64,000 nt of DNA from Mesodorylaimus sp. YZB2_4 (Eukaryota > Nematoda > Enoplea > Dorylaimida > Dorylaimidae): positions 90,434-154,433 of the forward strand of contig JASANH010000944.1 in NCBI GenBank assembly GCA_030248295.1, written 5' to 3'. Shown here in pieces: positions 3,949 to 48,300 of this stretch. Position numbers and translations under genes: made by a program. The notes beneath the pieces were generated by a model. The model worked only from the letters and a program-made list of their open reading frames with translations, did not search any database and was not told the origin of the DNA. How positions within the stretch are numbered: position 1 is the first letter of the stretch; each line of letters opens with the position of its first letter.

Positions 3949-5604
3949 CTACTTTCCTTTGCCGCCGCCATTCCCATTGTTTCCCGCATTGCCGTTTCCA
4001 TTATTGCCTCCATTTCCGCACCTGAAACAAAACTTTGTCAATGATCCGAGCGTCACAGCGAGAATGGCTGCCTACCCTGGTTGTCCATGGTTGCCACAGT
4101 TTGGAGTCGTTGGCGGAACAGCTGTGGTTGTGGTGGAGGTTGAAGATGTGATCGTGGTCGTGGTTGGCGTTGTTGTTGGGGTCGTGGTCGACTGTGTGGT
4201 GGTGGTTGGCTCAGTGGTCCTCGTGGTTGTCTGCTCACTTGTGCTAGTCTCAGTAGTCGGCTGTGTTGTAGTGCTCGTAGATTGAGTAGTGCTTTGAGTC
4301 GTAGTTGTTCTCGTCGTCTGGGAGTTGACTGGTTTTTTTACGAAGGCCAGGCCGCCCAAAGCTCCCAGAGCTCCAAGACCACCTAAACCGCCTAGGCCGC
4401 CAAGACCACCATCGCCCCCAAGATTGGCCTGGCCACCCGCATTTTGACCTCCATTGTTGACGTAAGCCAGAGGGCATAAGGCCGTTACATTCTCAAAGAG
4501 CTCACATTGCTCAGAGTGTATCGAGTTTCTGAAAAATCAATTTGTAATTTTCAAGTGTCAGGAGACACATACCCAGTTGCTTACCCGATCTGTTTAATTT
4601 CTCGTATATAAGTGAACCATTTTAAAAATGTTTGATCGTTGACATTTTTGAATGTGTGTTGGCATTTGCGGGGCTCTCCCCAACCGTCAACTCGCTGCTT
4701 GAGAAAGCGTCCACGGAATATTCGGCGTTGTGTCAGGGTATTTATGGTCATGTTACAGCAGAGAAATAGAGCTCTGTAACGGAAGAAAGATTTTGGACCT
4801 TTGATTTATGCAATTTGAGTTATGAAATTCCGAGATAAGGATTCACTGGCTCTTCATATTAAACTTGCGGCCACCCTTCAAACATAACTGGATGGAGTTC
4901 ATAAATTCCCGCCCAGAGAACCCCAAAATGTAAAGTGCCAGGTTACGAGGAGGGTCTGTGCCATGAGATATAAGTATGCAATCAATCTTCATGACTACCG
5001 ATAGCGACCCTGCCGTCCCAATGCAGGTGTTTGTCCGCTGGGGCTGATTGTACAAGCAAGCGGACCAAACATAGAGCATGTACAGTGCACATACAGTGTA
5101 GCACAATTTTCATGGCCCAAGAGTAAGTTTTCACGACAACCTGGGCCAAAATTTGTGTCCATGAAAGCGACAGGTAGCTAGCGATGCTACTCTGATGAAG
5201 ACCACATGCTGTATGATGCCAACTCACTTGTGCATATTTCTTGCGCGGTCATATTTTGGATGAATACCACGAATATAGGTGTAATTGCCAGTTTCTTTCA
5301 AAGTACAGGACTGCCGCCATTCGCATTTCTGAAATCACATAATTAGTTTCTAGTACAGAATGAGGGAACTTGTCTTTTTCACCTCGGTACAATTCGCAGT
5401 CACATTGACACATTGAATTGTGAGGTTCAAGCGGCGGAAGCCATTGTCGTTCCACTTTATCTTAAATATTGCTTGGCCTGGTCGGCACGACACCTTGTAG
5501 TTTGGGTAGGCTCGATCCATTCGATCGTTCCTATTAGCCACTTTCAAAGCAGTTGCTCGTTGGAAAAGACCACAAGTGATGATGAAGACTAACAGTAGCT
5601 TCAT
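3949..5604 (-). CDS. Secreted Cys-rich, Thr-rich protein of an unrecognised family (gene A), five exons
   Basis: Exons in coding order: 5604-5383, 5328-5228, 4773-4585, 4528-4076, 4021-3949; 345 aa. Residues 1-19 form a signal peptide (MKLLLVFIITCGLF). The head carries cysteines at 40 (SCRPG), 65 and 72 (QCVNVTANC), 76 and 82 (KCEWRQSC), 113-114 (FLCC), 145 (KCQHTF), 179 and 189. It includes N-glycosylation sequons such as NLT, NVT and NYT. The motif TYIR occurs twice, at 91-94 and 162-165. A Gly/Leu-rich stretch, then a Thr/Ser-rich mucin-like segment follow (about 235-310), then PNCGN and a Gly/Asn-rich tail (323-345). I recognise no named domain. Intron phases are 0, 2, 2, 2, exactly as in gene C and, for the first three, gene B. 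A secreted, O- and N-glycosylated structural or coating protein is inferred. Confidence 0.85.
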
Positions 5605-6190
5605 TGTGACTAGAAATGCAGAGAACTATTACAATATTCTATCAGTTGATCAGGCTTCTTTCTCTGAATCCAGGTATGTTTTACGCGTCCATGTGTTCGG
5701 GTATGTTAGTGTCTCTTGCAGTCTACCTCCAGTACAGTTCTGTACAGTGTCCATGTGTACTGTGTGAACGGCAGACGCCACTGTCAAGGCCAGGAGTCGA
5801 GCTGCTTTTAACTATAACAGCTTTTGAAGGGCTCACTTGTTTTTCTTGAGAGGCTACTGGAATGATGACTCAAAATTTAAAACTACCACATCCCTCAGTC
5901 CGCAAGATTGTCAGTCAGTGTGCGCTGACAAGATTCAAAGATTTTCTGAATGCAACTTCGAGCTAGACTAGGCGATGTTTCCTGTTAATTTTGACATGAA
6001 AGGTTGTGCATGTGTTGAAAGTTTCATCAAAGCGAAACCTGACAAGAAATTTTGCAACCATGCGCCTGCAAAAATGATCACTGTGGCAGTGTTATGCAGA
6101 AGGAAGGGCGGGAAATTCGAATTTATGCTCAAACTTAAACGACCGCGAGATTTTGTCCTGGAATCGTCGCTAGATCTGTTTTTTTTCGTT
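5605..6190. other. 5' flank of gene A
   Basis: The divergent space between genes A and B begins here. I see short ORFs only, and several copies of TACAGT/ACTGTA-type hexamers around 5690-5770. No gene is supported. Confidence 0.4.
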
Positions 6191-6209
6191 TTGGCTTTTT
6201 AATTTTTGT

Positions 6210-6607
6210 GGGTTCGGTCCCCCTGCCGCCCCAGTTCCCCACGGAACTACCAACCCGTTTTGCCTATAGCCGGACAGCAGTCATATCATGATAAGCAACG
6301 CCGTGAGGTGTCCCTGTACGTGTCTCCACGGGGAGCACCTCCACACGAGGGCATCCTGTGCCATCACCAGCGTCCCAGGATGATACTGGGCGAGAAGGGA
6401 GACACCTTCCCGACTGGTGTGTGGGAACCAGCTTCCTGATTCTTTACTCGTTCGGCGCCCGCCACTCGACGGTACCAGGTCGCTCAGAGCCAGGTGTGCA
6501 AAGCCAGCGACGGACTTCTAAACTGCCGTCCTCAGCCGGAAAAGAGCTGCTGGCCCAAGCGTTGAGGGACCAACGCCTTAACCAACTGAGCCACCGCGGC
6601 TCGCTAG
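6210..6607 (-). mobile_element. tRNA-derived SINE (minus strand)
   Basis: Read on the minus strand, the element starts near 6607 with a tRNA-like head. It has a perfect pol III box A (TGGCTCAGTTGG, at 6593-6582) and a decayed box B near 6523-6512. A non-tRNA body follows for about 300 bases. The box A match and spacing support a tRNA-derived SINE. The distal border is approximate, and no target-site duplication was established. Confidence 0.65.
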
Positions 6608-7379
6608 ATCGATGATGCCAGACTGGCAGACATGCAGACCTGACTTACCCATGTCGGCCATGAAATGAGATTAATATACTCTACGCAGTGAGAAAATGAT
6701 ATCGTCCTTTCTCTTTTCCTGTGACCATCTTAAATTTGCTCGGCCAATTTATAGACACGAAGTTTACGCAAGGTTCGATCACATCCGGTTTGATGCACTT
6801 CCTTGTCTGAATTTCAATGTTTGCCATCGCCCTGCCTGCCACATTTCTGACGTAAACGACAAGGAAGTGTTGCAGACAAGTGAGGCAAAGTGTCATTCGG
6901 ATCTCAGTCGTTCAAAAGCAGATACAGTACATTTTATTTTACTTGGTCTGTAAATCTAAAATTCAAAGATATAAACTTTGGAAAGCAGGTCCAAAAAAAG
7001 TAATAAAAGTGTCGACCGAGGGGAGGAGAGATTTATAAGTTTTCTGGTGAAAATTACGGGCGACGTGATAAACAGCTTTTTTGCGCGCGGTCAATAAAAA
7101 ATTTTATTGCCGCGAAATTCTTCTGTTCCGAAACGGAAGCCCTTTAGGGCATGGTGACATTATTTTGCGAGATAGTTTGAATGTTTGTCTTCAAGAAGGA
7201 TTTCCGCCATGTCGCAAATGTTACATCTTTTGATCACGATTTTTCCATTTTTGTGTACACCCACTTGCGGCCATTTTGCCTGCATGCAGCTTCCGCCATT
7301 ACACGGGACGCTGTGTAAGGCTGGCCAGCATCTGTCGTTTCTTTGTTAGCTATAGCGTTTTTTTGGCCTCAGGCCTTTT
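6608..7379. other. Gene-free stretch
   Basis: No gene supported. It contains a short imperfect palindrome at 7086-7114 (cgcggtcaataaaa against its complement), described under findings. Confidence 0.4.
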
Positions 7380-7738
7380 GCCTCTAGCTGGCCAGCAGAA
7401 AACCTTGTTAGCAAGGTTGTGGTGGGACCTGCACACACAGCAGAGTCCCCCTAGGAGTCCCCAGTGGAAGCAGTTCCATAGCAGGGCATCCAAGACAGGA
7501 CACCGACTCCCTCCGACGACGGCGGGTTGGCGATGAACCCTGTCAGCCGAGACTGTCTCTTCGTTTTGCTCACGTTTCTCCTCTCGGAGAACCTTGGCGT
7601 GCAAGGCCAGCGAGGGTTCATGGGTCGCAAACTTACCACAATCACCAAGAATTGAACTCAGGGCGAGCCTAGGCACTCCATACAAAGCAATATGGGTATA
7701 CGAATGCTGAGTCACTGTACCACCGCGGCCGCTCTAAC
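7380..7738 (-). mobile_element. Probable tRNA-derived SINE (minus strand)
   Basis: On the minus strand a tRNA-like head near 7738 has TGGTACAGTGA as box A and GAGTTCAATTC as a box B-like motif (7659-7646). A body rich in CCCC/GGGG pentamers follows. The body differs from the element at 6210-6607, so it may belong to a different SINE family. Borders are approximate. Confidence 0.5.
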
Positions 7739-9222
7739 AGCGCTTCTATAAAGGAAAACTGCTGAGCTGTCCTCTGAACTAGCGAGTTTCCATGGCCCCT
7801 GTAACTTGATGCCAGACTCACTATGCTGCCCAAATAAGTGGCAAAACAGAGTTCCAAAATATCAAAGTACCTTAGTGATAATCTTAGTTGTATCGATTTT
7901 TAGACGTTGATCCATTTATGACACGTCCAACATGCTCAGAGTAATCAAAACGTAAATCAGGAATCAGACGCTCAAGCAGATGGCATGCAAATATCACCAG
8001 GCAAACTCTGTACAAGCAATGGCGCTGTACTCGGTAAAACCCGGCCTAAACTCGAACCCCAGCGAGTGAACCTGTCGATTAGTCCAGTGGAAAGGTACAC
8101 TACTGGGAATCCATGGATCAAGATGTTTTGTTGGCTCTTTTGCGTTCCAGAATATATCAGTTTTCCATCTCATAAGGACCATGGTGTGCTGAAACTTCCT
8201 TAATTATGTACCAACGATGATAGCATATCATCGTCATTCCACAAAGTTATGGCAATAAAATTTTGGTTTATAATGTTACTTTACCACACATAGTTAACCT
8301 GTGTGGTCTGTGCGAAATCGCTGGTTTTTGCAGTCTTTGCTTTCATGCCTACACCTATTGCTTGTGTGGCAAGACAAGAAAATTAAGCTGGGGGAACAAC
8401 CAACGACTTTATGAGTGACACAAAGCAATGTGTTTTGATAATCTTCGGATTCACTAACATTTTTCCCCCGTCTTTGTGTGTGCAGTCGCTGTACAGCACT
8501 GTAGTATGCAGCACTGTACCATTCGTCTCGGCTTCTGATGCCTTGCACCAAACCACTAAAGGCGAATTCACATTGGAGACGCACCATCCGACCGAGCCAT
8601 CCGACCGAGCCAAGCAACCGAGCCGACCATCCGAGGTAGTATTCACATGGACTATGCGTCCAGTGCGTCTGCGGAGATGTCGAGGTCACTCAGTCCGTGG
8701 GAGGTGAAGAAACAACAGCATGGAACTGTTGTTTCGACTCGAATGGAATTTCACCTTGGGAATTCTATATTTAGTAAGGTCTGCCAAACACAGCCAATCT
8801 CGCTTCAACGAGCCGTCGAGTTATTGACGAGACACTAACTAGTTGATCTAACCGTCAAATACTGTTACTTCAACGACTCTTTTTTAAAAAGTCGTAAATT
8901 TTCCCCTTTATTTCTTCCACCTCTGCCATCGTGAACGAGTTCGCGTGGGGAAATGATCGACTCTTGTTCACGCCCAACATAGGAATACGAGCAAACAAGG
9001 CCGGGACGGACAAGATTAATTGAGAGAATTGCGGAAGCGTCAATCAGTGTGAGCACATTGATTCATTATTTGACTAAATATCTACAAACTAGTTCGAAAG
9101 TTGGAAAGGTCAACTGACCCTGAGACGAATATCCCCCCTGCCATTCCGTTTCGGTCGTAGTTGTGAGTGAACAAGGGTCCCAAGAAGCCGTCTGTAAACA
9201 ATTGTCTGTTTCAGTTCTGTGA
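7739..9222. other. Gene-free stretch upstream of gene B
   Basis: No gene is supported. Around 8000-8110 there is a weak tRNA-like segment on the minus strand with a box B-like GGGTTCGAGT, possibly an old SINE. Short TACAGT/ACTGTA motifs are frequent. Confidence 0.35.
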
Positions 9223-11222
9223 ATGAGGTACCTGCACTGCGCTTTATTGTTGCTGTTCATTTGCTCTGTCAGCTCCATCTCGAAGCTACCTAAGGATGAG
9301 GCGCCTCGGCAGACCCGAAATTACAAAGTATCGTGTCGACCTGGTAAAGCCATCAATAACATCATTTGGAAGGACAAAGGTCTCAATCAGCTGGACCTCA
9401 CAATCGACTGTGTCAACGTGACCGCAACTTGCAATGAGGTACCGTGCATTAAAAGTCCACATTGTGTAATACTTATTTGTAGCTTAGTGGTCATTACAGA
9501 AATGCGAATGGCGCGAATCTTGCTTGCTAAAAGATCTAAACAATTTCACATACGTTAGAGGACTTCATCCAATGTATGACTCGATGCATCGATTTTACAA
9601 GTAAATTTCACTCATTCTCAGTCTTTGAGAGTCCACGAATATAAAGGAGGGAAACCCTCTGAGAATGAGACTTACAGTACGCGCCTGTACAATTTGATCT
9701 GGTCGACCCGCTGCTTCGGTTCTAAGAGCAGTCGACGCCTTAAATAAAACCGACTTTTTGTGGAAGATACTTCCCTGACTATGACGAGCACTCAGCAAAA
9801 TGGGACACTTTTGGGGGTTGAAGAATGTTCTGAAAGTTAAATATTTTCATTTTTTTCCTCATCCAAACACACGAATGTGCACTGAACGGATAATAGATAC
9901 CAGGACACGTCATACATATGTGTGACTGGTCGCAGTGGTGCAGTGGTTCAGCAGTCGTCTACTCATACTGATTGGCAGGTAGCAGCTGCAGCTGTGCTCG
10001 TCCCCGGCCCCCAATCCCCGGCGACAGAGGTCGGTTTGAAATTTGTAACTCCGCTGACCTCACAGGGACGTGCCAACTGATTGTGAGTGTAAGCGCCTAT
10101 GCTGCGTAGTGGTCCCTCTATACTTGTTTTCCCAACCTTTCGAACTGCTAACGTTAGGTTATACTGTACGTACTGCAGTACAGCACGGGTAGTGCGCACA
10201 ACGTAGTTTTTCAACCCAGGGGGAAGAAGACTTCGGGCTCCTTACAGTAATTACTTACAGGTCAGTCGAAAACGCGAAAAAAAACGTGTGATAAGCGGAG
10301 CCCATTTCAGAGTTGGTTTCCTCTGTTGTAACTTCAGCAAGCCCCAAAATCGGCGGGACCGAAAAAAAATTATGGAGCCAAAGAATTGCAAGCATGGCTT
10401 CAAAAATGTTAATGAACAAAAATGGAAGAAGGGCGTCACGTATATCAGACAGATAAAGCAAGAGGGGTAAGTGGTCATGAATGATGCGGTGCGGCTCCAA
10501 AGGACCCAAGATCTACATTCCCTGTTTCCAATAGAAAAACTGTTCTCTCGGAACAGTGCCAGCTGGAAAAAGAAGTGAAAGTCTTATGCGCGATACCGTC
10601 TCCCTATCAAACGATCAACTACGGCGCGAGCGCTCTTGCTGGTCTCGCAGGCTTGAGTGGTCTTGCCTTGATTAAAAAGAAACCAGGTGCTAAAACGACA
10701 GCAGCCACAACGAAAACCGCCACAACGACATCCGCATCCACGACCACGACCACGCCAACAACCACGACCACGACGCCAACGACTACAACCACCACGACAA
10801 CACCAACGACTACAACCACCACGACAACACCAACGACTACAACCACCACGACAACACCAACGACTACAACCACCACGACAACACCAACGACTACAACCAC
10901 CACGACAACACCAACGACTACAACCACCACGACAACACCAACGACTACAACCACCACGACAACACCAACGACAACAACCACCACGACAACACCAACGACT
11001 ACAACAACCACCACCACCACGCCCACAACCACGACCACTACTCCAACAACTACCACTGCATGTGGCAGTCCTGGTGGTGTTGGTGGACCAGGAGGAGGCG
11101 GTGGAGGTGGAGGTGGAGCTGGCGGCGGTGGGGGTGGGTGTGGGGGCGGTGGAGGCGGCGGCGGTGGTGGTACAGGCGGCGGTGGCGGTGGAGGTGGCAA
11201 CTGGGGAGGCGGCAAGGGCTAG
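9223..11222 (+). CDS. Secreted Cys-rich, Thr/Pro- and Gly-rich protein of the same family (gene B), four exons
   Basis: Exons: 9223-9438, 9500-9600, 10311-10466, 10535-11222; 386 aa. A signal peptide (MRYLHCALLLLFICSVSS) starts it. The head repeats the family pattern: SCRPG, DCVNVTATC, KCEWRESC, FLCCN, NCKHGF, a second TYIR, then SEQCQ and LC. Exon 2 has exactly the same length (101 nt) as in genes A and C, and intron phases 0, 2, 2 agree. Exon 4 encodes a nearly pure Thr/Pro mucin-like region (about 215-330), built on a DNA minisatellite. It ends in ACGSPGG and a tail of long Gly runs with single Cys, Thr, Asn, Trp, Lys interruptions. Unlike A and C, the tail is in the same exon as the mucin segment. 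Exon 3 is shorter and lacks the basic linker of A and C. Function not known; extracellular structural role inferred. Confidence 0.85.
9925..10095 (+). mobile_element. tRNA-derived SINE fragment in intron 2 of gene B
   Basis: A plus-strand box A (TGGTGCAGTGG, 9936-9946) is followed by the motif GGTCGGTTTGAAAT at 10029-10042. A closely similar motif lies in the SINE at 48300-48640, so both may belong to one family. Borders approximate. Confidence 0.45.
10735..11058 (+). repeat. Coding minisatellite (Thr/Pro codons) in gene B
   Basis: About ten near-identical copies of a 27-nt unit (ACA CCA ACG ACT ACA ACC ... in frame) encode T-P-T7-type repeats. The reading frame is kept throughout. The repeats explain the long open frames on all other strands and frames here, which are artefacts. 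Confidence 0.85.
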
Positions 11223-13160
11223 TGTCACACAGTAGTATCACTGCGAGTATGATGTTTTCTCTACTGTAAACGATTCTGCACGCGTATTAGTTTTACCTTT
11301 TGGCTGTTTAAAAACGACGTCGCCTGGCAATGTTAGCGGGGTTCCCAACACAAGAGTGTTGTATCGTGGCCTGACGTGTGCAACTAATGGAGCCTTTACT
11401 TTAGAGTTGAGCCAGCTAAAAAGAGCCCAGACCATACAAGTGCAAGCCCTTATATCCAGAAGTTCATGCAGTCCTGTAAAGGCGTGGCTAATCCACTTCC
11501 AATATGAATTGCATAGTGCACACGCGGAATAGACATGACATCATGGGCGTGGCTAAATGGTCATTGGCTACAAGGAAACTATCATGCTACCATGAATAGG
11601 CTATGACTAATGAGCCCAGGATTTATGGCGCCGGCGATGTAGGCAGGAATGAAAACATAGAAAAGCATAAACTAATCCTGACTAAGGGAAAAACAGGTGC
11701 CCACACAAAATGCGTCTGGACTAAACCAAAAACAAGTGCAATTGACAGTCGACACTCGAAAATCGAGCTCACAACAAAGAGAACAAATTACAACGGGGAG
11801 AATGATAGTAGAGGCTCGGTAGGTCTTTGTTTTTAGGTGTTTTATTTGATCCTTTTACAGATAGATCCCGATCTAGCACTTGCAAACGACGAGTCAGATT
11901 TTTGGGCGCTTGTAGGACTCCGAGACTAAAAGGAATAATGCGAGTTCCCACCATAGATTTTAATTTATCATCAAAATCCTTTTTTAATTTTTTTTTAAGT
12001 TCTAATGCCAGGTCATCGCTTTAGTAACATTACCACGAGGCTTGGCACAGGGATATACTGAAGGTGGGGTGGCGTGCAGGTTTATGTACATATATGTGCC
12101 TCAACAAGAAATGAGGTCAAAATAGCCGACATGCTTGCAAAGACGTCGGTTTTGATGGCTCATGTGCTGAGACGATTCAACTGTGCCCGTTCGAGTATCC
12201 ATTACGGACGTTAACATTTCGTAGTGTGAAACATAAAGAAGGCAAAGATTCAAAAATGCATATTGTTTTTTCTGTTATGGCGCACCTTGGTCGTCTCCTC
12301 TTCGACCACCCGATCGAACGTGCTGCATGTAGCGTCACGACGGACAGTGAAAGATTGAAAAAGACAGCAACTACACTAAGGAAAAAAAATTAAGTCAACA
12401 GCTGTGCGGCAGGACCATCTTCTTGTTTTATTGACCGGCAAATAGTAAGGGTACTAGATGTGCATGTGCGCGATAACTGCGCCGAAAGGGAGTTCATTTC
12501 TCTTCCAGGCGAACCCCTCTGACACGTAACCAATCTTGACGGTCGCCAATTCTCGATTTTTTTCGCTAGCAAGTCAAAAATTTCGGTTTTCCGCATTTTG
12601 ATCTTATCCATAAATGGGAAATGGGTGACCAAATTGAAGATAAACATGGTTTTATTAGCTGAAGTTTGCTGAAAGGCACGCCAGTTATTGTTTCTGTATG
12701 TCAAGTCATGGATTCCTCAAGCTGGAAAATCGAAATCATCGATTATTGATCACGTGTGATTTTTCATCGAGTTTTAGATAAAACAAGTGGCAGATAAATC
12801 AGGTCATTTTTTCTTTGCTGTAGCAAAAAAATCATAAGCCCAATCAATTTGTGTCACTGAAAGAAAGCAGGAGAAATAATATCCCTCGGGAATGGGTTAT
12901 TCGTATCAAAATATCGCCGTAAAACTGATCACGTCGAAAAAGCGAGGTGATATCGATCAAAAGCACGTCTCGATCGTAAAAATTTTGAAGAAATAGAATG
13001 AATCCTACTTCGTTACGTTGACCTGTCAAAGAGACCCCAAGGAGGGCTGCCATACCCGCGGACCACGCATTGTAAAGAGTAAAAGAAAACAATCGCTGAA
13101 CAAGGTCAGAGTGGAAGTCAACGATTTTATGAATAAAATGCTTAGTACGCAAACAATGCC
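11223..13160. other. Gene-free stretch downstream of gene B
   Basis: About 1.9 kb with no supported gene. It should contain the 3' UTR of gene B. Confidence 0.4.
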
Positions 13161-13595
13161 ATGGCGATTGGATTAAAATGGCTTGAAGACATCAATGGGT
13201 CCAAGCGCTCGTGCTCAGCGACAAAATTTGGGCAAATCGATTTCTCAGGGCTTAAAAGGAAGAGCAAGGAGACGGATGATCTTTGGAGCCAAAAATTCTT
13301 GTCTGACAAAAGTCAGTTTGAATTTGTATCAGACCGCCTAACGGGCTGTATTCAACAATCCCACGAACGGTTTCGACCTGACTGTATTCAGACGAGAGTG
13401 AAACACGGTTGTGACAGTCTAACGGGTTGGGGATGCTTAATTTCAATTAGTGTTGGTGAACTTCATCCAATGCAAGGCACTAACAGTGCTGCTTTAGACA
13501 TCGGAATGTTGATCGAAAATTCGATTCCATCAATCAATCTTGTCGAGTACCACTTCCAACAAGTCAGTGCACCTTGTCACGTGGCAAAACCGTGA
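13161..13595 (+). pseudogene. Tc1/mariner-type transposase remnant
   Basis: An open frame of about 144 codons resembles the middle of a Tc1-like DDE transposase: a SDKSQFEF segment where the family has SDESKF, RFRPDC, then RVKHGCDSLTGWGC, and FQQVSAPCHVAK where the family has FQQDxAPxHxA. The acidic residues expected in SDES and FQQD are replaced (K and V), so the catalytic triad is broken. The N-terminal DNA-binding half and the C-terminal part are missing. I found no convincing terminal inverted repeats. This is an old, dead copy. Confidence 0.65.
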
Positions 13596-14055
13596 TAAAA
13601 AGGTAGGTTGATCAAGAAATCGATGTTATCGATGATTCGCCCTCAAAATCCTTGCGCAGCTATTTGATTGAATGTTAATGTGATTTCAGTGATCGCTTCA
13701 GATCAGAACATAGTCAGTTCCGATTGGGTGTTGGAAGCGATAAAAACAACTTTAAGTTGATACTTGCATTTATTTCTTGATAAACCAGCTTCTAGGTGTT
13801 CCTATTTCATGGAAGCCTTTTGTGAATAATTAATGTGGTCTCTCAAAATATTGATTACTAATCGAAATATCGATCGACAAAAAGTTTTTTCAAAAATCGT
13901 GTTCGCCATTAAATTCTGCGTCTAACGCTGTTTTCATTTGTATTATCTAGGATGGTTACTTAGAGAGTTTGGAAGGCATACTCTAGAAATTAGCCCGATG
14001 CGCACAGCTGTTAGCTTAATTTTGAAACGTAGTATATACCTGCCTCCCCCCCAGG

Positions 14056-14185
14056 ATCGACCGAACACGGTTTTTGCACCGAACCGAACCTTACCGAACT
14101 TTTTCTAAAATCTCACCGAGCCCGAACCGAACCGGACCGAACCGAACCGACCGAACCGAACCTACCTACCGAACCGAACCGAATT
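14056..14185 (+). repeat. ACCGA/CCGAA short tandem repeat
   Basis: Irregular tandem copies of the pentamer-type unit ACCGA(A). The same unit appears in opposite orientation at 15149-15255, so the two tracts form an inverted pair about 1 kb apart. Confidence 0.7.
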
Positions 14186-14542
14186 TTCTATGTTCACCCT
14201 AAGCACATCCTACATAAAGTATCATCATGTATATAGAGTAATATCAAGAATGACCCGCTAATGTTTCGTCTTTTAGCAGCCCTAATCTGAAAGTTATTGC
14301 GGTAAATTTGATACCATTGTGTTCAGCATTCGATTCTGAGTCAGTTTGACCTATTTTGCTAGCCATTATATTCACCATTCGTTTTTTAAACGCTATACAC
14401 GCGAAGTACCAACTGTCACAACTTTTTTCACAATGTCCGAACGAATTCGTTTCGGCAAGCTTTAACTCAGCTTTTGGAGTTGCTTCGGACTTTACTCGAT
14501 CCCAGTTCATTGCATAAGCAAATTCTTCCTAGACTGAGTAGT

Positions 14543-14941
14543 CTAATGGTTCGAATCGGGACTATTCAGAGACCAACGCTTAGCTTTGATAAAATCGGGG
14601 AAAGTGATCCCTGCACCATTTCTCCGAATCTTTGTGGGTTTGAGCCTTCGCGCCATCTTGCTGAGATGTCCAGTTGTTCCCAAATACCTTTCTTCCATAT
14701 TTCTCAGCTGCTGGCAAACCATTTCCATATGAACGGAATCATCGACTGTAACTTTACCCAACATTACCAGCGGTGTAACCGAATTTCTAAGGTCTTGACT
14801 TTTCATTTGTTGTACAGGCAGCTGTTCAGTATTATGTACACTGATTTGTGAGTGCACTGCCTGATGAAGCAATTGCTCTATCCTTCCTGTGTTAGTGTAA
14901 AGTTTACTACAACGCGACTGCTTCCGTAGAAAACTAGCCAT
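14543..14941 (-). other. Unassigned ORF between the inverted ACCGA tracts
   Basis: A 132-codon open frame on the minus strand that starts MASFLRKQSR and ends NSPDSNH. I recognise no domain. It sits between two inverted ACCGA-type tracts, which raises the possibility that it is part of a mobile element. It could also be a chance ORF. No splice context or paralogue is visible here. Confidence 0.2.
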
Positions 14942-15148
14942 TTTATGTTAGTGTCATTCTTTGTGGCACCCGATATTTTCAAAATATTCAGAAGTCACTC
15001 CTGTTAATCATTTTTCAAATTGAAATTTTGAAGATAATGAAGAAAGGACCGAATAATTAAGGAAAAGGGACAGAGAAATTTATAGCGAGAACGAAACCTC
15101 AAACAAAATGACCGCGTTTTTCCAATAAAAGAGGGAACTCGAAATTGG

Positions 15149-15255
15149 TTGTTCGGTTCGGTGGTTTGGTCCAAAAAAGCCAGTTCGGTTCGATTCGGTA
15201 AAAATCGCCAATCCGGTGGTTCGGCTCGGCCGCTTCGGTGGTTCGGTCGATGCTG
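15149..15255 (-). repeat. TTCGG/TCGGT repeat, inverted relative to 14056-14185
   Basis: Complement of the ACCGA-type repeat. The outer edge of both tracts reads GATCGACCGAAC or CATCGACCGAAC next to a C-rich CCTCCCCC block, which suggests related ends. Confidence 0.6.
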
Positions 15256-16800
15256 GCCTCCCCCGCGCATAAAAATTTTTAGGCCGTTCGTCTGGTATGT
15301 CAGCCCAAATGCGGGCGGGCCCAAAATCTGCTTTTCTTATACATTCGTACACGGTGGCTTCTACTTTGAGCGTTACCAGTTTTATGTTTCTTCAATTTTG
15401 CATGCTTCCGCTTGCCGTTTGCCACCTACGACACGGGATTCGTACGGAGATGATGAAACCTAAGGGCAAAAAGATATTGTATGAGTCGCCCTCATTGTTC
15501 ACCTAATTTTTGTTGATAAATTTTCACATGATTTCAGTCGCTCGAGTGGCTGACTGATTGGTAACACACTTTTCACTGTCTAGGTAACATGAACCTCTTT
15601 CATCTCGATATGATTCAATTACCCATTTACAAAAAATATTTTGAACAAGCTGGAGCGAAAAATTTTTGAATTCGGGTGCTTTTTTTCTGCCACTGCCAGA
15701 GCTTGCACGCGGTCTGTTTAAGAGCATTAAGCGAGAAAAATTTAACCTGGCACTAACGGCAGCCCGTTCAATGCGGCCAGCTCGCACACACCACGTCTGA
15801 CTAAATACATTCTCACGCTTTGTTTCATGCTTTCTTTCGCTCATTTTGTTTTGTTTTCGGCCCCCCCCCCCCGCCAGGGTTCTCCCCGCCCCCTGGACCC
15901 CCTAAGCCTAAGAGTGGAAACGGATGCAACATCCCACACTGGCAAACATCTAACATTGCAAACTTGAAATCTACTGTATTAATAGAAAATGTTTTATTTG
16001 TCGATCATATACCGAAAAAGAAAAATTTGAAAAAATTTTAATCTCAGGAAAACCAGGGTAAAAAAGAGCAGCGCCAGGGCAGGAGCGAATCTGGGTCATC
16101 CGTTCTTAACCCTGCCTCCCTTTCCCCTACAGGCGCGTACGCAGGGGGTGCTTGGGGGCCTGAGCCCCCTACGACCCTGATAAGTAAGGTAAAGGTTCAA
16201 AAAAATCCGTGCAATGCCAGCCTTGAGTTAGGTTGCATGCCCACTTGATACATTTTTGTGTTTTCGCAGTGCAAGATTGATATTTGTCGCCTCCGGCGGG
16301 GCGGAGATAAACCCCAGTGGCGAGCACAGCGGGTGGCATTGCAGTCAACGGTCCCCTTCCAAACCAGAGAAGTGGCCAGAGTGGGGACCCAGTTGATCAA
16401 TAAAGGTTTTTCTTGTATATTGTGAGTACGGTATGAACGTATGAAACTGTTTTTTTGCCTGTCATGCAGCATCGACTCATCGCGATAGCTTCGTCCGCGT
16501 TCGAATAGTTCATCTCGTTTGTTTTGTGGGATTTGGATGACACTCGTTGTACCTCATAGCTACTGTATTTGCCAGCTCTTAACTCGACTTTTATTATCAT
16601 TCCTTTTTCCGTCGCACAAGACACAAGCCATCGGATGCATGCGAAGGAGTCATCATAAATCTTCAAGTCTTTCAATCTTTTGAGTCCTAAAACCTAGATG
16701 AGACCCCGCATAAGAAAGTTTTATAGGTGATGCCAGTTTGCGCTATTCTGGGCTCCGCTCGGGTAGGCGGAGCTAGTTCCGGCCGATGTCATGACAAATT
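15256..16800. other. Gene-free stretch
   Basis: No gene supported. A C run of 12 lies at 15861-15872. Confidence 0.35.
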
Positions 16801-16803
16801 GCC

Positions 16804-17042
16804 TGATTTCATGACGAGTCTCGTATCGTATGAGTATACTGAACGACCAGGTGCGGGGTAGTCACAATATATCTGGGAAGAAACAGATCTACTGCATATC
16901 GTGTGATGCATGCTGACATGTTGTGATGACCCCGCACCCAGTCGTGCAGTATACGCATACGATACAAGACTCGCCATGAAATCAGCAATCAGCAATCTGG
17001 GAAGAAACAGACCTCTATCGTGAGATGAATGCTGACTGGTTG
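16804..17042. mobile_element. Foldback (hairpin) element with internal direct repeat
   Basis: The arm 16804-16866 (starting tgatttcatgacgagtc) is complementary to 16921-16984 with roughly ten mismatches, leaving a loop of about 54 bases. In addition, the block at 16871-16923 (atctgggaagaaacaga...) recurs directly at 16995-17042. This combination suggests a small non-autonomous foldback transposon or a partly duplicated MITE. No coding sequence lies inside. Confidence 0.65.
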
Positions 17043-17045
17043 TTT

Positions 17046-18242
17046 CATAAATTTAGTTTAACTACGGTATTGTGCAAGAAGGTATTTATTATTCATGTTA
17101 TTGTTTTACCACCTTACCATACGCTTTTGCGCAATCGAGAGGCTGACACCATTATATAGCGCGGCGGGCTCACATTCGTTGCGGCTGACGATGAAATGGA
17201 GCAAAGTCGCAGCGGCCACTTTTTTTTACAACTACCTTCGTTCACACTGGAACTGCAGAATCTGAGGGGTCTGCAGTCGATCCTGCCGCTTGGCTGAATA
17301 CTGCACATGCTTATAGCAGATACGTAGATTGAGACCTTCATCGGACTTTCTCTGCAAGCGGCTGGTGAGGGAGGCACGAGCTTGCCGAAATTTTAGTCAT
17401 GAAATAAGCTCTCGGTTTTTCGAACACAATAGGAAACTTCAGACCAGCTAGTGCATCTGAGCTCACAGTGGCTAGATATGCCTTGTGATGTTGCTTGCTC
17501 GCCTTTTATGGTAGAATGCGTCTCACATACAGTATACGCTTACGATTAGTTGTAAGCACGATCCTCGTTGATGTCAGCATCAGAAGCACAAAGCATAATT
17601 GGAGGGAAGCTGAAGGTGGGTGATGAAGCTGATGGCACGTTGAAGTTATGACAAGGCGAGGTATTGGTGTTGTTTTAGCGAAACTGCAACGGGTCAGGCA
17701 TCGGTCAAGCAATGACCTTCAACGTTGCAGTCGTTAGCGCAGCTTTTGTCCCGTGATAAGCTGGAAAGTGGTGAAAATGCCTGCATTAAAAATAGCCCTT
17801 ACAACACATCTGAAGCCCCACCACCACGAAATTTCACAAAGTGAACACTGACAACAATCAAGTTTGGAACTGGTACAGTTTTTGTACAGGCTCATGTTCC
17901 CTGGAGTGCCCACTCTGCTTGTTTTATTCGAAACAGAGCTCTGAAAAATGAGTCTACAATTTGTTTTTGTGCACGAAATATGATCTACCATGTTCACTCG
18001 GTTATGTCCCCTGACTGGACTCAGCTTTAAGTTTTAACTTTCGAGTGAGCGCGGTATTATAATTATCTAGACTAACTTTTTATCGACTTTGACATGCTTC
18101 AGCTACAGCTTATCCATGCAGTATCTTATTCTCGATGTCAATCTGATATGTGCGAATTTAAAAAACAAAATGAAGTACTCGTATATGGAATAAAGTAAAC
18201 TCTTCCAGACTGAATGAATCACGATCGGTACTTCTTCAGTTA
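17046..18242. other. Gene-free stretch downstream of gene C
   Basis: About 1.2 kb with no supported gene. The part nearest 18243 should be the 3' UTR of gene C on the minus strand. Confidence 0.4.
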
Positions 18243-20788
18243 CTATCCATTCTTGCCGCCGTTTCCATTATTTCCTCCGTTTCCAGTATTTCCTCCGTTC
18301 CCATTATTTCCTCCGTTTCCGCTGCCATTATCGCATCTGAAATAAGAAGATCGAGACAATTTAACGATCTCTAGTACAACAGACGGGGCACGACTCACAA
18401 CGGCTGTCCTTGGTTTCCGCAGTTTGGAGTCGTTGGTGGAATCGGTGTCGTCGTTGTCGTTGTAGGCGTAGTGGTTGTAGTTGTCGTTGTAGGCGTAGTG
18501 GTTGTAGTTGTCGTTGTAGGCGTAGTGGTTGTAGTTGTCGTTGTAGGCGTAGTGGTTGTTGTGGTCGTAGTCGGCGATGTGGTCGTTGTGGTTGTTGTAG
18601 GTGTTGTGGTCGTTGTGGTTGTTGTAGGTGTTGTGGTCGTCGTGGTCGGGGTTGTGGTGGTGGTGGTTGGCTCAGAGGTGGTTGTGGTCGTGGGCTGGGT
18701 AGTCGTAGAAGTGGACTGAGAGGGTTCTGTTGGCTGGGTCACGACCGCTGGAGTCGAGCTAGCTTTAGTTGTCTCGCCTGGCTGAGGCACTGGCCTTTTG
18801 ACAAAGGCTAATCCCATCACTACCGCCATAGTTTCTAAACCTGGAAGCCCTATGGGATAGTAAACAGCGTTGCCACCGAAACTTCCTTGCCCCCCGACAT
18901 TCTGAAATCCATTGACATAACCCAAAGGACACAATGCCGTAACATTCTTGCGCGATTCGCATTGTTCGGTAACTATGCTGTTCCTAGAAGGCAATATGCC
19001 TGTGTTTTACCAAAATCTTTAGCACACACGATTTTTTACTGACCCGATCTGCTTGATTTGTCGAATGTATGTAGTCCAGTTCCTGAATTTTTGATCGTTG
19101 ACGTTTTGGAACGTGTGCTGGCAATGGTAGGGTTCTCCCCAAACTTGTGGTCGATGGGTCTCAACCCCTTTCATCCTTTCTTTGTGTCGTCGGCCGTAAA
19201 ATTTTGGATGTCGAGGCGATGATTGCGGCGGAGCGATGGTTGCATTGAGAGTAGCATTGCAGCATAGGAACAGAGCCCTGCAAGCTAGACCATTCGTACT
19301 TAAGAGTCAAAACTCTCACGGAAGCAAAGTTTCCTTGGTGAAATGTCCTGTCGCCAAATTTTAGGTAGATAAGGAGCTACTTCAATTGTTTCTGTCACCA
19401 ATAACCTGTTTTCTTTGAGAATATACACGCCCCCCCACGTTACCGCATAGGCCGCGTGTACATTCCCAAAGAAAACAGATAGTACATACTGTACTTTGAA
19501 AATTTGCCAAAGGCGAAGCACAAGAGGACGCTTCTTCGAGCGTCCACGAATCGGCCTGACCGCACTTTGATGAACCGTGATTCGGTTATCCTCTCTGGAC
19601 CCTCTGTGCGGAAACCAAATGCATACAGTGGTTGCTTTTTATATGGCGGTGGTATGGATCTATATCTACTGTATAACGGAACTGGCAAAGACAAGATCAG
19701 TCAACTAACACGGCCTGCTATTGATTGTACTTCACACCTTACGGTGTGGGCCTCACAGCCTAAAATGCTATTTGGATGCGATGCATCAACTTAGCGTGCG
19801 CTGCGTAAGAACTGACAATGAAAAATAGTACCTAAATATGTGGCATCGCTATCTAGGCATTGCACCCAACTGTACCTAACTGCACTTCCACTGTGCATCT
19901 ACCAAAAAGCCGCCAAGGTCCATTATCTAACCAAGATCAGTCAACCAACACATCCTACTGTAGACTGCATTTCACAATGCTATGGTGGGAACCATATGGA
20001 ATAGTACTGCGTACAAGTGTTTGAATGCGGTGCATCGAGTAAGCGCGCGCTGCGAAAGAATGAAAAATGATGCCTATATTTGTAGCTTATCTGACCCATC
20101 GCATTCCAACTGCACTTCCACTGCGTATATACCAGAAAGGCCAAGGCCCATTATCTCATGGGAATCGCGCAGATCCTCAACATGGGCTACTGTGTAAAGC
20201 CCCAAGCCCCAAAGCGCCACAGAAGCTCCAAAGATTGATCCTAATGGCTGTAGTTTTCCATAACAGTATGTTTTATGTCTAAAGTGACCCCAAATCCATG
20301 AGCAAATCATTCCACTCACCAAGCGGCCTAAAATGCTTCTCAGTTTTCGCAGGTCTCATGCGATCAAGCTGCTGAACGCCACGTCCTATCTCAACGACAA
20401 GCAGTACTCACCTGTGTATATTCTTCACACTGTCATATTTAGGATAAATAGCTCTAATGTACGTGTAGTTGCCAGTTTGCGACAGCACGCATGAATCACG
20501 CCACTCGCATTTCTAGAGCAGAAGTTTTTGAGTTTTCTGGCCAGCGCATTACCATCTCTCTCGCCTTACCTCGCTGCAATTCGAGGTCACATTTACGCAT
20601 TTGATCGTGAGATTGAGACTCCGGTATCCACTGTCCTTCCACTTTATGTTATAAATACCTTTACCTGGTCGGCAGGACACATTGTAGTTTGGATAAGGCT
20701 GCGATACTTGACTTCTTCGAGTCGTCAACTTCGCAGCAGTTGTTTGGGAGAAGCCGAGAATCAAGAATAAGACCAGCAAGGGGTGCAT
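18243..20788 (-). CDS. Secreted Cys-rich, Thr-rich protein of the same family (gene C), five exons
   Basis: Exons in coding order: 20788-20570, 20512-20412, 19277-19044, 18983-18399, 18336-18243; 410 aa. A signal peptide (MHPLLVLFLILGFSQTTA) precedes the family head: SCRPG, KCVNVTSNC, KCEWRDSC, FLCCN, HCQHTF, EQCE and LC, with TYIR in both exon 2 and exon 3. Exon 3 carries a longer basic linker than gene A. Exon 4 has a Gly/Tyr-containing hydrophobic segment and a long Thr/Pro mucin-like region ending PNCGN; exon 5 encodes a regular Gly/Asn tail (repeats of GNGGNN). Intron phases 0, 2, 2, 2 are identical to gene A. Gene C is closest to A in exon plan and tail. Intron 2 contains a 235-bp tandem duplication. 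Biochemical function unknown. Confidence 0.85.
18420..18660 (-). repeat. Coding minisatellite (Thr/Pro codons) in gene C
   Basis: In-frame repeats encoding T-P-T7-type units on the minus strand, parallel to the array in gene B. They explain the open reading frames on the opposite strand. Confidence 0.8.
19691..20160. repeat. Imperfect tandem duplication of about 235 bp in intron 2 of gene C
   Basis: Unit 1 starts near 19691 (aagatcagtcaactaacac) and unit 2 near 19931 (aagatcagtcaaccaacac). Both continue through aligned blocks such as gcgctgcg, aactgcacttccactg and cattatct. The units are clearly related but diverged with several indels. Confidence 0.7.
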
Positions 20789-32300: not shown

Positions 32301-35300
32301 GCCACCATTTCCGCCCCCTTTTTCTTCCATGCATAGAATCTCTCAAAACGGCAGCTCTTTCGAAAAAGGACTCGCAACCACTCTCTTTTCCCGACAAAGA
32401 CCAGTCCCCTCCCCGAGCGCGCCATCAGAACTCCCCCTTTTGGATGGCAGCGCTCAGAAAAAAGCCATCCATCCACGGTGTTGTGTCATTTGTGTCCGGA
32501 CATTGACTGGTTGCTAGCATTGCCGAGTTGTTTTGTCAAATTTCGTTACTCCGCATCATTAGCTCGTTCGGCGGCCGTTTCTCTTTCCAAGGCTCCATTC
32601 CATTTACTCAGAGTCTGTCTGCCACTGCTCATCCATCCATGCCGAATATATTTCAAAGATTAGTGTCTAACCTTGTCTTCCATTGGTCAGGCATGAACGG
32701 CCAGCCCAAAGTGGTGGTCACCACGGCCGATGAGCAAACGTCCATCGTATATCAGCAACCATCTCGGCCCAGTCTGCCCACCTCAATTTCCTTGAATTTG
32801 GCGCATCGTGCAACGGTCGAGCCTCTGAGGACGTCGGCCGATAATGACACGGGTGGCTACCAGCAGTCCACCACTCGATATTACAATAAGCATCATCGAC
32901 GGCACAGCGGCAGTCGAAGGAAACACTCCCATTTCGAACACTCGATCATGAGTTCGGCTACTTTCAATGGCACCGTTCTAAGTTTATCCTCATCCAAAGA
33001 TGCGGGGCGACTCATTCATCGCGGTGAGCAGAATGGACGACCAATCGCCGCACGAACCAATTCTGAAACACTAGATCCGTTATCGGACGAAATCGAGCGC
33101 CGATCGATCCTGCATTATGACATTGGGTATTACGAGAAAAGTCACACAGGCTGTATCAGAGGCACCTTGACATTCGCCCTACGATACGACTATATTCATC
33201 GGGTGCTTATGGTACACTTGATCAGAGCTAGCCATCTTACTGACAAGGTAAGCTCGCATTTCGCATGCCAAGTTTTTTATCTCAAAAAAAGTGCTGATCA
33301 TGGTGCCCAGTCTTAGCTGAACTTTTGATTTGAATTTCCCATGCAAGCACGATGCAGGGTCGAAATTGATACAAGTGATGCTTTCTAACCGCGGTAACAA
33401 AAGTTTAGTTTAGGTGGTTAAAAAAATTGGGCGGAGCCTTTTATGACAGCTGCAGTCCATTATACAGGTTTATTTGACATCTCAATGTGGTTACTGCGCT
33501 CAGCTTGCAATGTCTTTTGCCATCATCTACAGTAGGATATATCGATTACAAATTATAGCTTTGTGCAACCTGAGGGCCATATCTTATAAAAGTTAGTCCG
33601 CATACAACCTTTCAAACGAATGCAAGTGGGTTATAATCTCCCACTAAAATAGAATTATCATGCCAAAAAAATATTTCGAATTCCCACTTTCCCACTTCCC
33701 ACTAGAATGCGTCATGTGCTGGTCAAAGAATCTTCATTTTGGATTTGCGTGCAATGGGAAATATATCACGCAACACTATCATGCGATGCCAGATCAGAGT
33801 TAGTCTATGTGGTGAACGCGGTCGATATGCACTAGCAACTCGTCTACTGTACTTATTTGGCTAGAAGTACGCAGTACCCTTATGAAAATATTACAAAATT
33901 GCGAATGTTCGCGTCGTGGCTCGTCCAATCCATTGTTTGAGAATCGCGTCTAGGTATCTGCAGCAGAGAAATAAGAATAATAAATAAGAATAAATAAGAA
34001 TCTGGGGCATTTATTTATTTCTTCCCCCGTTTAGCAGCAAAATCTCGTTTACCTGGCAATGCTGACAGCTGAGATTCTCTCATCTGTTGTCAGTGTACTA
34101 AGGGCACGATCCGCGAACAATAGACTGCGGCCCACACAACGAATTTGTGTGACTCCTTACTGGATTCATTCTTATTAATTAATAACGGCCAAGCCATAGT
34201 CCCAAATTCTATTTCTTCATGCGCGATGTCGCAAGGATCTAAAGCGGTATATACTGCGTGGGCAGTCCCTCACTTCCCCTTTTTATGTTTTGCCTCACCC
34301 CCCCCCCCTTCCCCCCCAAACGCATGAATGCACACTCGAGGGTGTAAAAGCATATTTTAGACCAATTGTTTCACCCGGCCGCGATTCGAACACTCGTGGG
34401 AAAGCGCGCACCCAGCGTGAGAGACATACTGTACCCCGAACCCGCAGGCTAGATGCAGATGAAGAGCATAGCAATTACGATTTGCAGCAACACCAGCTGT
34501 GGCCATTTGGAAAGATGCTCCTACTTTAACTATAGACGGCATATTAGCATACGAGTTCACATATGTACCTACTGTATACTGCTGGCATACCTGCTATCTC
34601 GATTACGCACTAACAGGCACATTGCGAAGTGAGTCAATTCGTATCCCATCAGCGTTTAGTTAGGGTCTTTGGCTATCAAAGAAACTGAAGTGCTGCTAGC
34701 CTTTTCTTTTAGGACCATTCCGCGATCTCTTTGGATCCATATGTGAAAATGTATTTATTACCAGAAAGGAGATATCATTGCAAGACCAAAATATACCGAA
34801 AAATATTTGACCCAGAGTTCAATGAAATGTTTTCATTCGACGCGCCCTACACAAGCCTTTCGTCCAGGATGCTGCAAGTGAGGCCAAGAATGGGTTGTCT
34901 GGTCTTCCTTTCTCCCAAGTACACATTGTCTAGTGGGTTAAAAACCTTCGCCAATCAAGGTTTCGGCAAGACTGGCCGACTAAATTTTTTGCCACCCTTT
35001 GTTTTTCCTTGCACACGTGGAACCAATCTGTTGAGAAGTGTTCATAGTACGGCTGCCTATTACAGTAGGAAGTCCTCGTGTGTTAGGCCTATGCAAGTGC
35101 CTAACAGGCTGTCAAGCACCTCATTATCTACGGGGTTGGTCTAGACGGTCCAACCAAACTGATTTCATTCATTCTCAGAACTTCCTGTTTTCCATGCACC
35201 TCTAACCGCATTTCTTTGTTTACAGTTCACCCTTTATAATTATGATCGATTCACGCGGCACGGCCTGATTGGCAATGTAATCATGCGTGATTTGTTCGAA

Positions 35301-36377
35301 AAATCTGATTTGCACGCCTGGACCGAATATACTATGGCCATTATCGGGGATAATGTGAGTTGAACAATTTGGGATTTTCAATCCAATTTTTGCAGAGTTT
35401 TGGTTCTAGGAAAAAGACGACTACGGGGATTTGCTTTTGTATTTATCGTATGACCCGAATGATGCAAAATTAATAATTTGTGTGGCGAAAGCGTGTAATT
35501 TACGACCAATGGATATCACTGGTGCCTCAGGTAAATTTTCATACCTTAGCTTTGCAGGGCGTGCAGAAGAGTTAGCCATGGTTTTGATATTCTCCATTAT
35601 AAAATATAGGTTCTCTATAATATTTAGCGCGCGACAGGATTTGAGCACATTCGCACTGTAATCTACATTTTAGCAGTCGCACTTTGCCCCTCTCCAGATC
35701 AACCCAGGGGTTTCTCTAGTAAGTACATCCAATGAATGACGCAACATGCTTTCGACTCCTTCGAAGCCTAAAATCTGCTTAACACAGCCTTTGCCAGAGT
35801 TTTCTGCTTTCTGCACTCGTTTTTGCGAAATTCATCACAAAAACCTCGATTTGGAGGTCCTCGCTTCTTCTTGGACGTTTTCACGTGTTTTCTGCTGTAA
35901 CATTTTTTAAAAACCAGTAACATGTTTTAGATCCATACGTGAAGATGATTCAATTGCAAGGGCGACGACGCGTAAAAACTCGTAAAACTACGATGAAACG
36001 CGCCAATTTGCACCCAGTCTACAATGAAATGCTAACATTCGATTTACCAGAATCACAAATCGGCAATACAAGTATTTTAATCAAAGTCATGGACTGGGAC
36101 AGGTATGAAGTGGTCCTTTGTTTCTGTACTTTTAGTGCTCGACTATGCTCGTCCATTTATCGGATAAATGTTAAACGATATTTTACCAGGTTTACTGCTT
36201 TGCAGAATCGGCCACGACGATCTGCTGGGCTGCTGCATTTTGGGCAGCGAGAGTCCAACAGCAGAAGGAAGGGAGCATTGGCGGCAATGTTATCTGCGTC
36301 AGAGCGATAAACCCGTCGGAATGTGGCATTCGTTGTTGGCCGATGTGCCCGAAGGATACACCAATATCACCAAATAG
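29376..36377 (+). CDS. Synaptotagmin-like membrane protein with two C2 domains, seven exons
   Basis: Exons: 29376-29820, 32691-33247, 34713-34877, 35226-35354, 35410-35530, 35931-36102, 36206-36377; 586 aa. Synaptotagmins sit on vesicles or plasma membrane and couple Ca2+ to exocytosis. An N-terminal lumenal part of about 90 residues is followed by one membrane segment (91-113) ending in Cys-rich CTSYCWRKRCF (likely acylated). A long Ser/His/Arg-rich linker follows (about 114-290), then C2A (about 295-430) and C2B (about 436-575) with the family's C-terminal W-H-S-L. C2B keeps all five Ca2+-binding aspartates (MDITGASDPYVK; MDWDRIGHDD). In C2A the loop 3 acids are partly lost (YNYDRFTRHG in place of YDFDRFSKHD). 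All introns are GT-AG and in frame. The subfamily is not assigned. An in-frame ATG upstream of exon 2 could start a shorter form. Confidence 0.9.
29821..32690 (+). other. Large first intron of the synaptotagmin-like gene
   Basis: A 2870-bp intron with no further coding exon that I could support. Just before exon 2 the frame stays open from about 32528. An ATG at 32640 would add residues MPNIFQRLVSNLVFHWS ahead of exon 2, suggesting a possible alternative, soluble N-terminus. Confidence 0.5.
34320..34440 (-). mobile_element. tRNA-derived SINE fragment in intron 2 of the synaptotagmin-like gene
   Basis: On the minus strand GTGTTCGAATC matches pol III box B. It lies downstream of TCTCACGCTGGGTGCGC, which is shared almost exactly with the element near 57270-57390. 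The two copies identify a dispersed family with a tRNA-like anticodon-arm segment. Confidence 0.6.
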
Positions 36378-47243: not shown

Positions 47244-48300
47244 TTCGATAGACAGACGCAGGACGCGCACTCAAAGTCTATGAAACACGACACTTATTGG
47301 TCGGGGCAACTTCAAAAACTTCTTACGTTCATACACCTAGAAAAATAATCAGTAGACGCCCACGCAGTTTCCCGAGAAATATCTTTCCATACATTAATAG
47401 CAGACCAAATAAAGCTTTGCCTATAAGCTACAAAGTTTACTCTGGAAACAAAAAGATGGTGCGGCTCACAAGTCCAGGCGCTAGCACGGCCAAAAGACTT
47501 GTGACTAAAACGTGCATTGGTAAAATCCTGAAAACCGTGATAAAACTCATAAAACTGGCACACTCAAACACTTTCTTCTCTTATAAAGTGACGACCACCC
47601 AGATCTGACTAAAGCATTCTGATACGATATGCTAAAATCATTCAGATAAAGCCTAAGAGCATAATGTTGGGCACCTTCTAAGTCGGCAATATCTGTCGTC
47701 AACACCGGATCCCAGCACACTGAACCATACTCGAGAACACTGCGAATATAAGCTTTGTATACGAATCCAAACACCTTAGCATCACAATTTCTGCCAAGCT
47801 TTCTCCTCAAAGCGCCAATCATATTAGTCGCTTTACGAACAATGTTAGAAGTGTGCTCACTGAACTTCATATCGCTTGAAAACAAGATGCCCAAATATGT
47901 TACCTTGTCGCATTTTACCAGCTTGTGTCCATCGATATGCAAATCTGGAACATCGGGTAATCGATTATGACCATACCGGAATAAGATGAGTTTTGATTTC
48001 GATGCACTAAATCCCAAACCATTCGATTGAATGCAGTCCGAAATAAAATCAATGGCAGGTTGTACCAGCCGATCCAAATCGCTGATATTATTAATTGGTG
48101 CAAGCAGAGATGAATCTTGTAAGAGAAAATCAGGGAATTTATCGAAATATGAAGCAAGGGATTGATGAACGCGACGAACAGGGCAGGTTTCAGAATACTA
48201 CCTTGCAGTACACCAGATCGCACGGGAACTGAATCTGACGAGCATCCATCAATGATATCGATAACTCTTTGCATCGTGAGATGGCCAGGAAAGTTACAAG
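47211..48300 (-). pseudogene. Degenerate LINE (non-LTR retrotransposon), reverse transcriptase part
   Basis: Read on the minus strand, the element enters the RT domain with RSGVLQGSILKPALF (family: SGVPQGSxLGPxLF), then IN-LL. After a frameshift follows LLQDSSLL where the family has FADD. Next come SASKSKLILF, KVTYLGILFSSDMKFSEH and RSVLEYGSVCWDP. A further frameshift leads to a C-terminal YRQSFIWSAINVWKD segment. The coding remnant ends near 47312 and the copy appears to terminate in a (TGAA)n tract at 47211-47243, a 3' tail type known from L2/CR1-like LINEs. The 5' part is cut off at about 48300 beside a SINE. Frameshifts and loss of the catalytic FADD motif make it inactive. Confidence 0.75.

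Follow-up and report, generated by a model that had tools for sequence, protein, structure and literature searches.

Three clustered genes of a dorylaimid nematode for putative secreted mucin-like proteins with a ten-cysteine head

Gene structure and protein architecture

The window analysed here is a 64,000-nucleotide stretch of contig JASANH010000944.1 from the nematode Mesodorylaimus sp. YZB2_4 (positions 90,434 to 154,433, forward strand). It contains a cluster of three related genes, A, B and C, whose predicted proteins combine an N-terminal cysteine-rich head with a Thr/Pro-rich tract and a Gly-rich tail. The genes were modelled from the DNA of the window by translating the frames and fixing the splice sites. 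Gene A lies on the minus strand from 5604 to 3949 and has five exons (345 codons), gene B lies on the plus strand from 9223 to 11222 and has four exons (386 codons), and gene C lies on the minus strand from 20788 to 18243 and has five exons (410 codons). All 11 introns feature GT-AG borders. Exon 2 is 101 nucleotides long in each gene, and the intron phases after exons 1, 2 and 3 are 0, 2 and 2 in all three. A fourth intron, of phase 2, precedes the Gly/Asn-rich tail in A and C and is absent from B. A preliminary description of this DNA had reported an exon 2 of identical length and identical intron phases; this stands for exon 2 and for the first three introns, but not for the last intron. 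A polyadenylation-like signal is located within 600 bases 3′ of A and of C, and none was found within 600 bases 3′ of B. On the sequence evidence, A, B and C are real genes.

The exons divide the protein in a similar manner in the three genes. In A, on the minus strand, exon 1 (5383..5604) encodes the putative signal peptide and the SCRPG and CVNVT elements, exon 2 (5228..5328) encodes KCEWR.SC and a TYIR element, and exon 3 (4585..4773) encodes FLCCN, KCQHTF and a second TYIR. Exon 4 of A (4076..4528) contains the last two head cysteines, a Gly/Leu linker that hydropathy marks as hydrophobic, and the Thr-rich tract, and exon 5 (3949..4021) encodes the Gly/Asn-rich tail. The first three exons of B, on the plus strand, are located at 9223..9438, 9500..9600 and 10311..10466, and its exon 4 (10535..11222) holds the end of the head, the linker, the Thr tract and the Gly tail in one exon. 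The exons of C, on the minus strand, are located at 20570..20788, 20412..20512, 19044..19277, 18399..18983 (end of the head, linker and Thr tract) and 18243..18336 (Gly/Asn-rich tail). Acceptor-like sequences (TTTCTAG or TTTCAG) lie a few bases 5′ of the ATG in A (5605-5615) and B (9205-9222), with none at C, and could mark either an intron in the 5′-untranslated region or a trans-splice acceptor. Intron 2 of C (1134 nucleotides) features short repeats spaced 240 and 230 nucleotides apart at 19692-20139, a local tandem duplication.

The alignment of the three heads spans 214 columns, of which 70 are invariant and ten of these are cysteines. The cysteine signature C-X24-C-X6-C-X3-C-X5-C-X30-CC-X(19-45)-C-X33-C-X9-C is found in all three heads, and the spacing is constant except for the one variable loop of 19-45 residues. 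The hydrophobic N-termini, with 19-residue hydropathy maxima of 1.58-1.86, are consistent with signal peptides. N-glycosylation sequons are present in each protein (six in A, three in B and ten in C, nine of the latter within the head). The putative signal peptide, the ten conserved cysteines and the sequons, all listed in the preliminary description, are thus seen in A, B and C alike. A TYIR-I element recurs in both halves of the head, and 3 of 200 column shuffles were as good. The TYIR motif described earlier as shared is indeed present in exon 3 of all three genes, but in exon 2 of B the element reads TYVR.

The head is followed by the hydrophobic linker, which ends in GLAFVKK in A, GLALIKK in B and GLAFVKR in C. 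The C-terminal half is rich in Thr (28, 50 and 40% of the tail in A, B and C) and Gly (21, 22 and 13%), in agreement with the Thr/Pro plus Gly(-Asn) composition described earlier. The Thr/Ser/Pro tract of A is irregular, and those of B and C include 27-base-pair minisatellites (10738..11053, plus strand, in B and 18456..18648, minus strand, in C), each encoding units of one Pro and eight Thr (P-T8). Compared with the P-T8 unit of B, the main unit of C has different codons at 8 of 9 positions and the second C unit type at 7 of 9; the nine-residue period of the peptide has therefore been built from distinct DNA repeats. The proteins end in a Gly/Asn-rich stretch in A and C and in an almost pure Gly stretch in B. 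Two cysteines are found in each tail, as C-X7-C in A and C and with 25 residues between them in B, and the exon 5 tail is similar between A and C. Each of the three proteins thus has a putative signal peptide and a long Thr/Ser/Pro tract, the two features used to class a protein as mucin-like and secreted.

The three genes are old paralogs that, judging from their substitutions, are held under selection on the protein. Identity over the aligned head codons is 0.62 for A and C, 0.50 for A and B and 0.48 for B and C. The proportion of differing synonymous sites (pS) is saturated at 0.76-0.84, compared to 0.23-0.33 for nonsynonymous sites (pN). Third positions differ at 102 of 170, 102 of 189 and 111 of 174 codons in the three pairs versus 41-66 at positions 1 and 2, so that third-position differences are 1.5 to 2.5 times as frequent as those at first or second positions. 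The saturated pS together with the conserved protein indicates that the paralogs are old and were kept by protein-level selection. None of 10 comparisons of introns with their counterparts revealed any resemblance. Searches with tblastn of exons 1-2 of the paralogs against one another gave E-values of 3.6e-21 to 3.2e-39, compared to a best E-value of 0.01 for a control of 300 shuffled heads against the window. The local duplication with inversion that had been proposed is borne out, and the saturated pS and dissimilar introns place it in the distant past. A search of the 64-kb window for further copies (frames of 15 residues or more, full-head profile, E ≤ 1) returned 12 pieces, every one of which is an exon of A, B or C. 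Two weak matches to a profile of the second half of the head (E 0.5 at 29028-28930 and E 0.79 at 23398-23345) were taken as chance.

Domain searches and comparison with nematode coat proteins

The head is unnamed in the profile libraries searched. Searches of the three heads against Pfam-A with hmmscan at E-values up to 10 gave no match for A, only C6 (0.083) for B, and only SH2_1 (0.081) and Ig_TgrO1 (0.62) for C. After trimming, A still had no match, B matched YabA (0.14) and C matched SH2_1 (0.064); the head consensus had no match in any of its three forms. Every Pfam match of the heads therefore has an E-value of 0.064 or worse, lies under the curated cut-off, and is not common to the three heads. 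The only matches in NCBIfam (E 0.03) and PHROGs (E 0.53) each concern one member, and the head profile against PDB sequences found three entries, the best of which (E 0.028) is a designed protein. C6, SH2_1, YabA, Ig_TgrO1, PRK08363, phrog_205 and a designed TIM barrel were rejected as lone weak head matches that are absent from the paralogs. In the case of the nematode C6 domain (PF01681), the match to the head of B is collinear, however, it reaches 13.8 bits against a cut-off of 27.9, with nothing for A, C or trimmed B. The full-length Pfam search covered two of the three proteins, A and C, and its matches to Tim54 (E 0.087) and SOG2 (E 0.011, 15.6 of 26.9 bits) fall on the linker and Thr tract and were taken as composition effects. 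Because hmmscan filters out most weak matches, the searches exclude clear family membership, not remote kinship. The profile search of the head had been set beforehand as a test by which the proposed novelty could fail. It gave no strong match to a characterised family, and the earlier statement that the head matches no named domain holds in the Pfam, NCBIfam, PHROGs and PDB sequence searches. By these comparisons, none of the three proteins belongs to a named domain family. Additionally, no description of such a family was found among the literature matches listed, which comprised titles and abstract openings with few subscription journals.

Proteins that combine a small disulfide domain with a mucin part have been described from other nematodes. 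DPY-6 features a C-terminal four-cysteine cradle and a mucin part and is reported to pattern the cuticle furrows (PMC11925461, PMC13225626, PMC11304992). As in A-C, the DPY-6 and SPIA-1 cysteine-cradle proteins (CCD-aECM, PF23626) are secreted nematode proteins with a small disulfide domain, accompanied in DPY-6 by a Ser/Thr-rich mucin part, and have a matrix role according to the same reports. The CCD domain, however, is C-terminal, four-cysteine and alpha-helical, whereas the cysteine domain of A-C is N-terminal and has ten cysteines. The CCD motif, C-X22-C-X7-P-X3-C-X9-C (PMC11925461), was found in none of the three proteins, either exactly or with spacings relaxed by 3, and PF23626 (cut-off 27 bits) was reported for none of the three heads, assuming that the Pfam copy searched includes this accession. 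The Toxocara canis mucins MUC-1 to -5 (TES-120) are likewise secreted and carry cysteine-rich modules beside Ser/Thr tracts; the modules are six-cysteine ShKT domains, and the proteins form the surface coat (PMC3611597). A-C lack ShKT-like spacing and have a Gly tail, a feature that the available text of PMC3611597 does not mention for the MUC proteins. No ShKT match was found for the heads in Pfam, and a loose spacing pattern devised here found ShKT in none of the three proteins. By analogy, A-C follow the logic of DPY-6 and the Toxocara MUC proteins but differ in having an N-terminal head of another kind and an additional Gly tail. The overall plan is known from other nematode mucins and the head looks new. 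Neither known cysteine motif is present and CCD is unreported, so A-C are classed as mucin-like matrix proteins on the basis of their working plan. In C. elegans, the specific mucins of the surface coat are stated to be unknown (PMC11304992).

Proposed function and competing explanations

The features of A-C fit extracellular coating material, as judged from the signal peptide, the sequons, the mucin tract and the Gly tail, and the three genes probably make coat material. The fuller proposal, in which three functional genes that arose by ancient duplication encode secreted glycoproteins with a structural role in an apical extracellular matrix, is held with slightly more confidence than doubt. 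In this proposal the signal peptide would direct the protein out of the cell, where the head would form a compact, N-glycosylated and perhaps mostly beta domain with up to five disulfides and would dock to partners or self-associate. O-glycosylation would turn the Thr/Pro tract, with its nine-residue P-T8 units in B and C, into a stiff, hydrated stalk, and the Gly/Asn tail, which has a cysteine pair of its own, may pack or cross-link neighbouring molecules. The assembled coat could be a cuticle surface coat, an eggshell layer or a gland mucus.

Several results weigh against the proposed matrix role. AlphaFold2 on the three-row head alignment gave a mean predicted local distance difference test score (pLDDT) of 40 with strands only, which at most hints weakly at an all-beta fold. 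Pattern searches for relatives of the head gave 66 matches in viral contigs and 93 in genome contigs, none of which was confirmed, in collections that were not built for animal genomes, and a hybrid head query of 87 residues found no relative in phages. Additionally, the linker is almost hydrophobic enough to span a membrane. It contains the highest 19-residue hydropathy beyond residue 35 in all three proteins (1.68 in A, 1.29 in B and 1.58 in C) and is followed by a basic pair, KK or KR, in each, so that A-C could be membrane-anchored glycoproteins. These values are borderline or low for a membrane span, the linker of A is a Gly-Leu repeat, and the Thr-rich, cysteine-bearing tail would then face the cytosol, which makes an anchor quite improbable. 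It is rather unlikely, to a lesser degree, that the proteins are soluble gland products (mucus, saliva or defence) with an active or binding head and a Thr/Gly tail that serves as a solubility or retention tag. Gly/Asn tails are typical of material proteins, and the low pN of the head indicates constraint and not rapid change, both of which argue against such products. The presence of three diverged paralogs with a conserved head and a variable tail length would suit a gland product, as would the report that Toxocara mucins serve both as coat and as secreted product (PMC3611597). An artefact of the gene models, in which repeats were joined to unrelated exons, is hardly credible: several reading frames are open across the low-complexity tails and B has no nearby polyadenylation-like signal, but the exon structure is alike in the three genes, third positions are saturated while the protein is conserved, and exon 5 is alike in A and C.

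A different origin of the head, as a far-diverged dermatopontin (DERM, PF14704), is improbable. Dermatopontin is a matrix protein whose domain has three repeats and five disulfides, and it shares ten cysteines with the head. The yardstick was a manually entered dermatopontin sequence, which scores 145.1 bits with Pfam DERM as a positive control. By eye, its elements occur in a vaguely similar order (C-x-P/G-x-x-I ... C; C-x-W ... C; YIRG ... CC; YIR ... C), and the repeated TYIR-I of the head also speaks for this reading. Alignment of the head profile to the yardstick sequence with hhalign covered 26 columns with P-values of 0.029 and 0.036, and phmmer searches with the yardstick against single heads (a database of one) gave scores of 0.1-2.1 bits, with E-values of 0.0097 for A, 0.0066 for B and 0.029 for C. 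Shuffles equalled the hhalign score, however, in 6 of 200 cases, and in 7 of 200 when the cysteines were kept fixed. The head profile scored 0.7 bits on the yardstick sequence. Of 2000 plain and 2000 cysteine-fixed shuffles, 1845 and 1931 were reported, and 247 and 366 of these, respectively, reached that score. Neither the three heads nor their consensus gave a DERM match in hmmscan (cut-off 28.3 bits), the cysteine spacings are unlike those of dermatopontin, and the repeated D-R-x-W-x-F hexapeptide that is the hallmark of dermatopontin is absent from all three. The PDB sequence search at E ≤ 10 returned no dermatopontin, DERM was not found in viral contigs, and no report of dermatopontin in nematode-type animals appeared among the literature matches listed. 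DERM was found in 0 of 15, 0 of 195, 0 of 398 and 0 of 396 bacterial genomes (the last three sets each share one with the first 15), a count in which no positive control responded and which says nothing about bacteria. The likeness of the head to dermatopontin is weak at best and not significant against shuffles, and is a lead rather than a finding. Returning to secreted coat proteins, a bolder version remains doubtful: in nematode-type animals the head may represent a new family of extracellular domains with ten cysteines, as one part of a three-part coat molecule that also comprises a mucin stalk and a Gly/Asn tail resembling silk. The head could possibly be a deeply diverged triple repeat of the dermatopontin type, which would extend that matrix family to these animals.

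Neighbouring genes and significance

The window contains several other genes or gene-like frames. A muscle myosin heavy chain gene with many exons lies on the minus strand at about 37.5-43.7 kb (37500-43700). A piece of its motor (400 residues, joined by eye) scored 653 bits with C. elegans MHC-B (6QDJ), compared to 523 bits with the next match from a different species, 3jbh, which is taken to be tarantula myosin. On this lead of 130 bits, a tardigrade, arthropod or flatworm origin of the DNA was rejected in favour of a nematode or a nearby group such as the hair worms. Against this, the best match of a 212-residue tail piece is tarantula myosin, and no nematode tail is apparent by name among the 15 matches listed. 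The identity of 6QDJ as MHC-B follows PMC6803673. A single-frame seven-transmembrane receptor at 54289-55422 (plus strand) is slightly above the Pfam cut-offs for the nematode chemoreceptors Srx and Srw, and a 485-residue frame at 49934-51391 (minus strand) resembles ionotropic glutamate receptors below the Pfam cut-offs (Lig_chan, 24.5 of 30.8 bits). Two C2-domain exons at 34713-36310 (plus strand) probably belong to a synaptotagmin-type gene, a name that is a guess. Frames at 47547-48478 (minus strand) resemble by eye the end of a reverse transcriptase from a non-long-terminal-repeat retrotransposon, with no match in Pfam.

The three genes provide a ten-cysteine signature that is clean and searchable; the domain that it marks is unnamed in the profile libraries searched and is fused to a mucin tract and a Gly-rich tail. 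Orphan secreted cysteine-rich families are common in animals, and if this one is confined to one lineage it would be one more of them. Should relatives occur throughout the nematodes, the family would give a name to a missing component of nematode outer coats.

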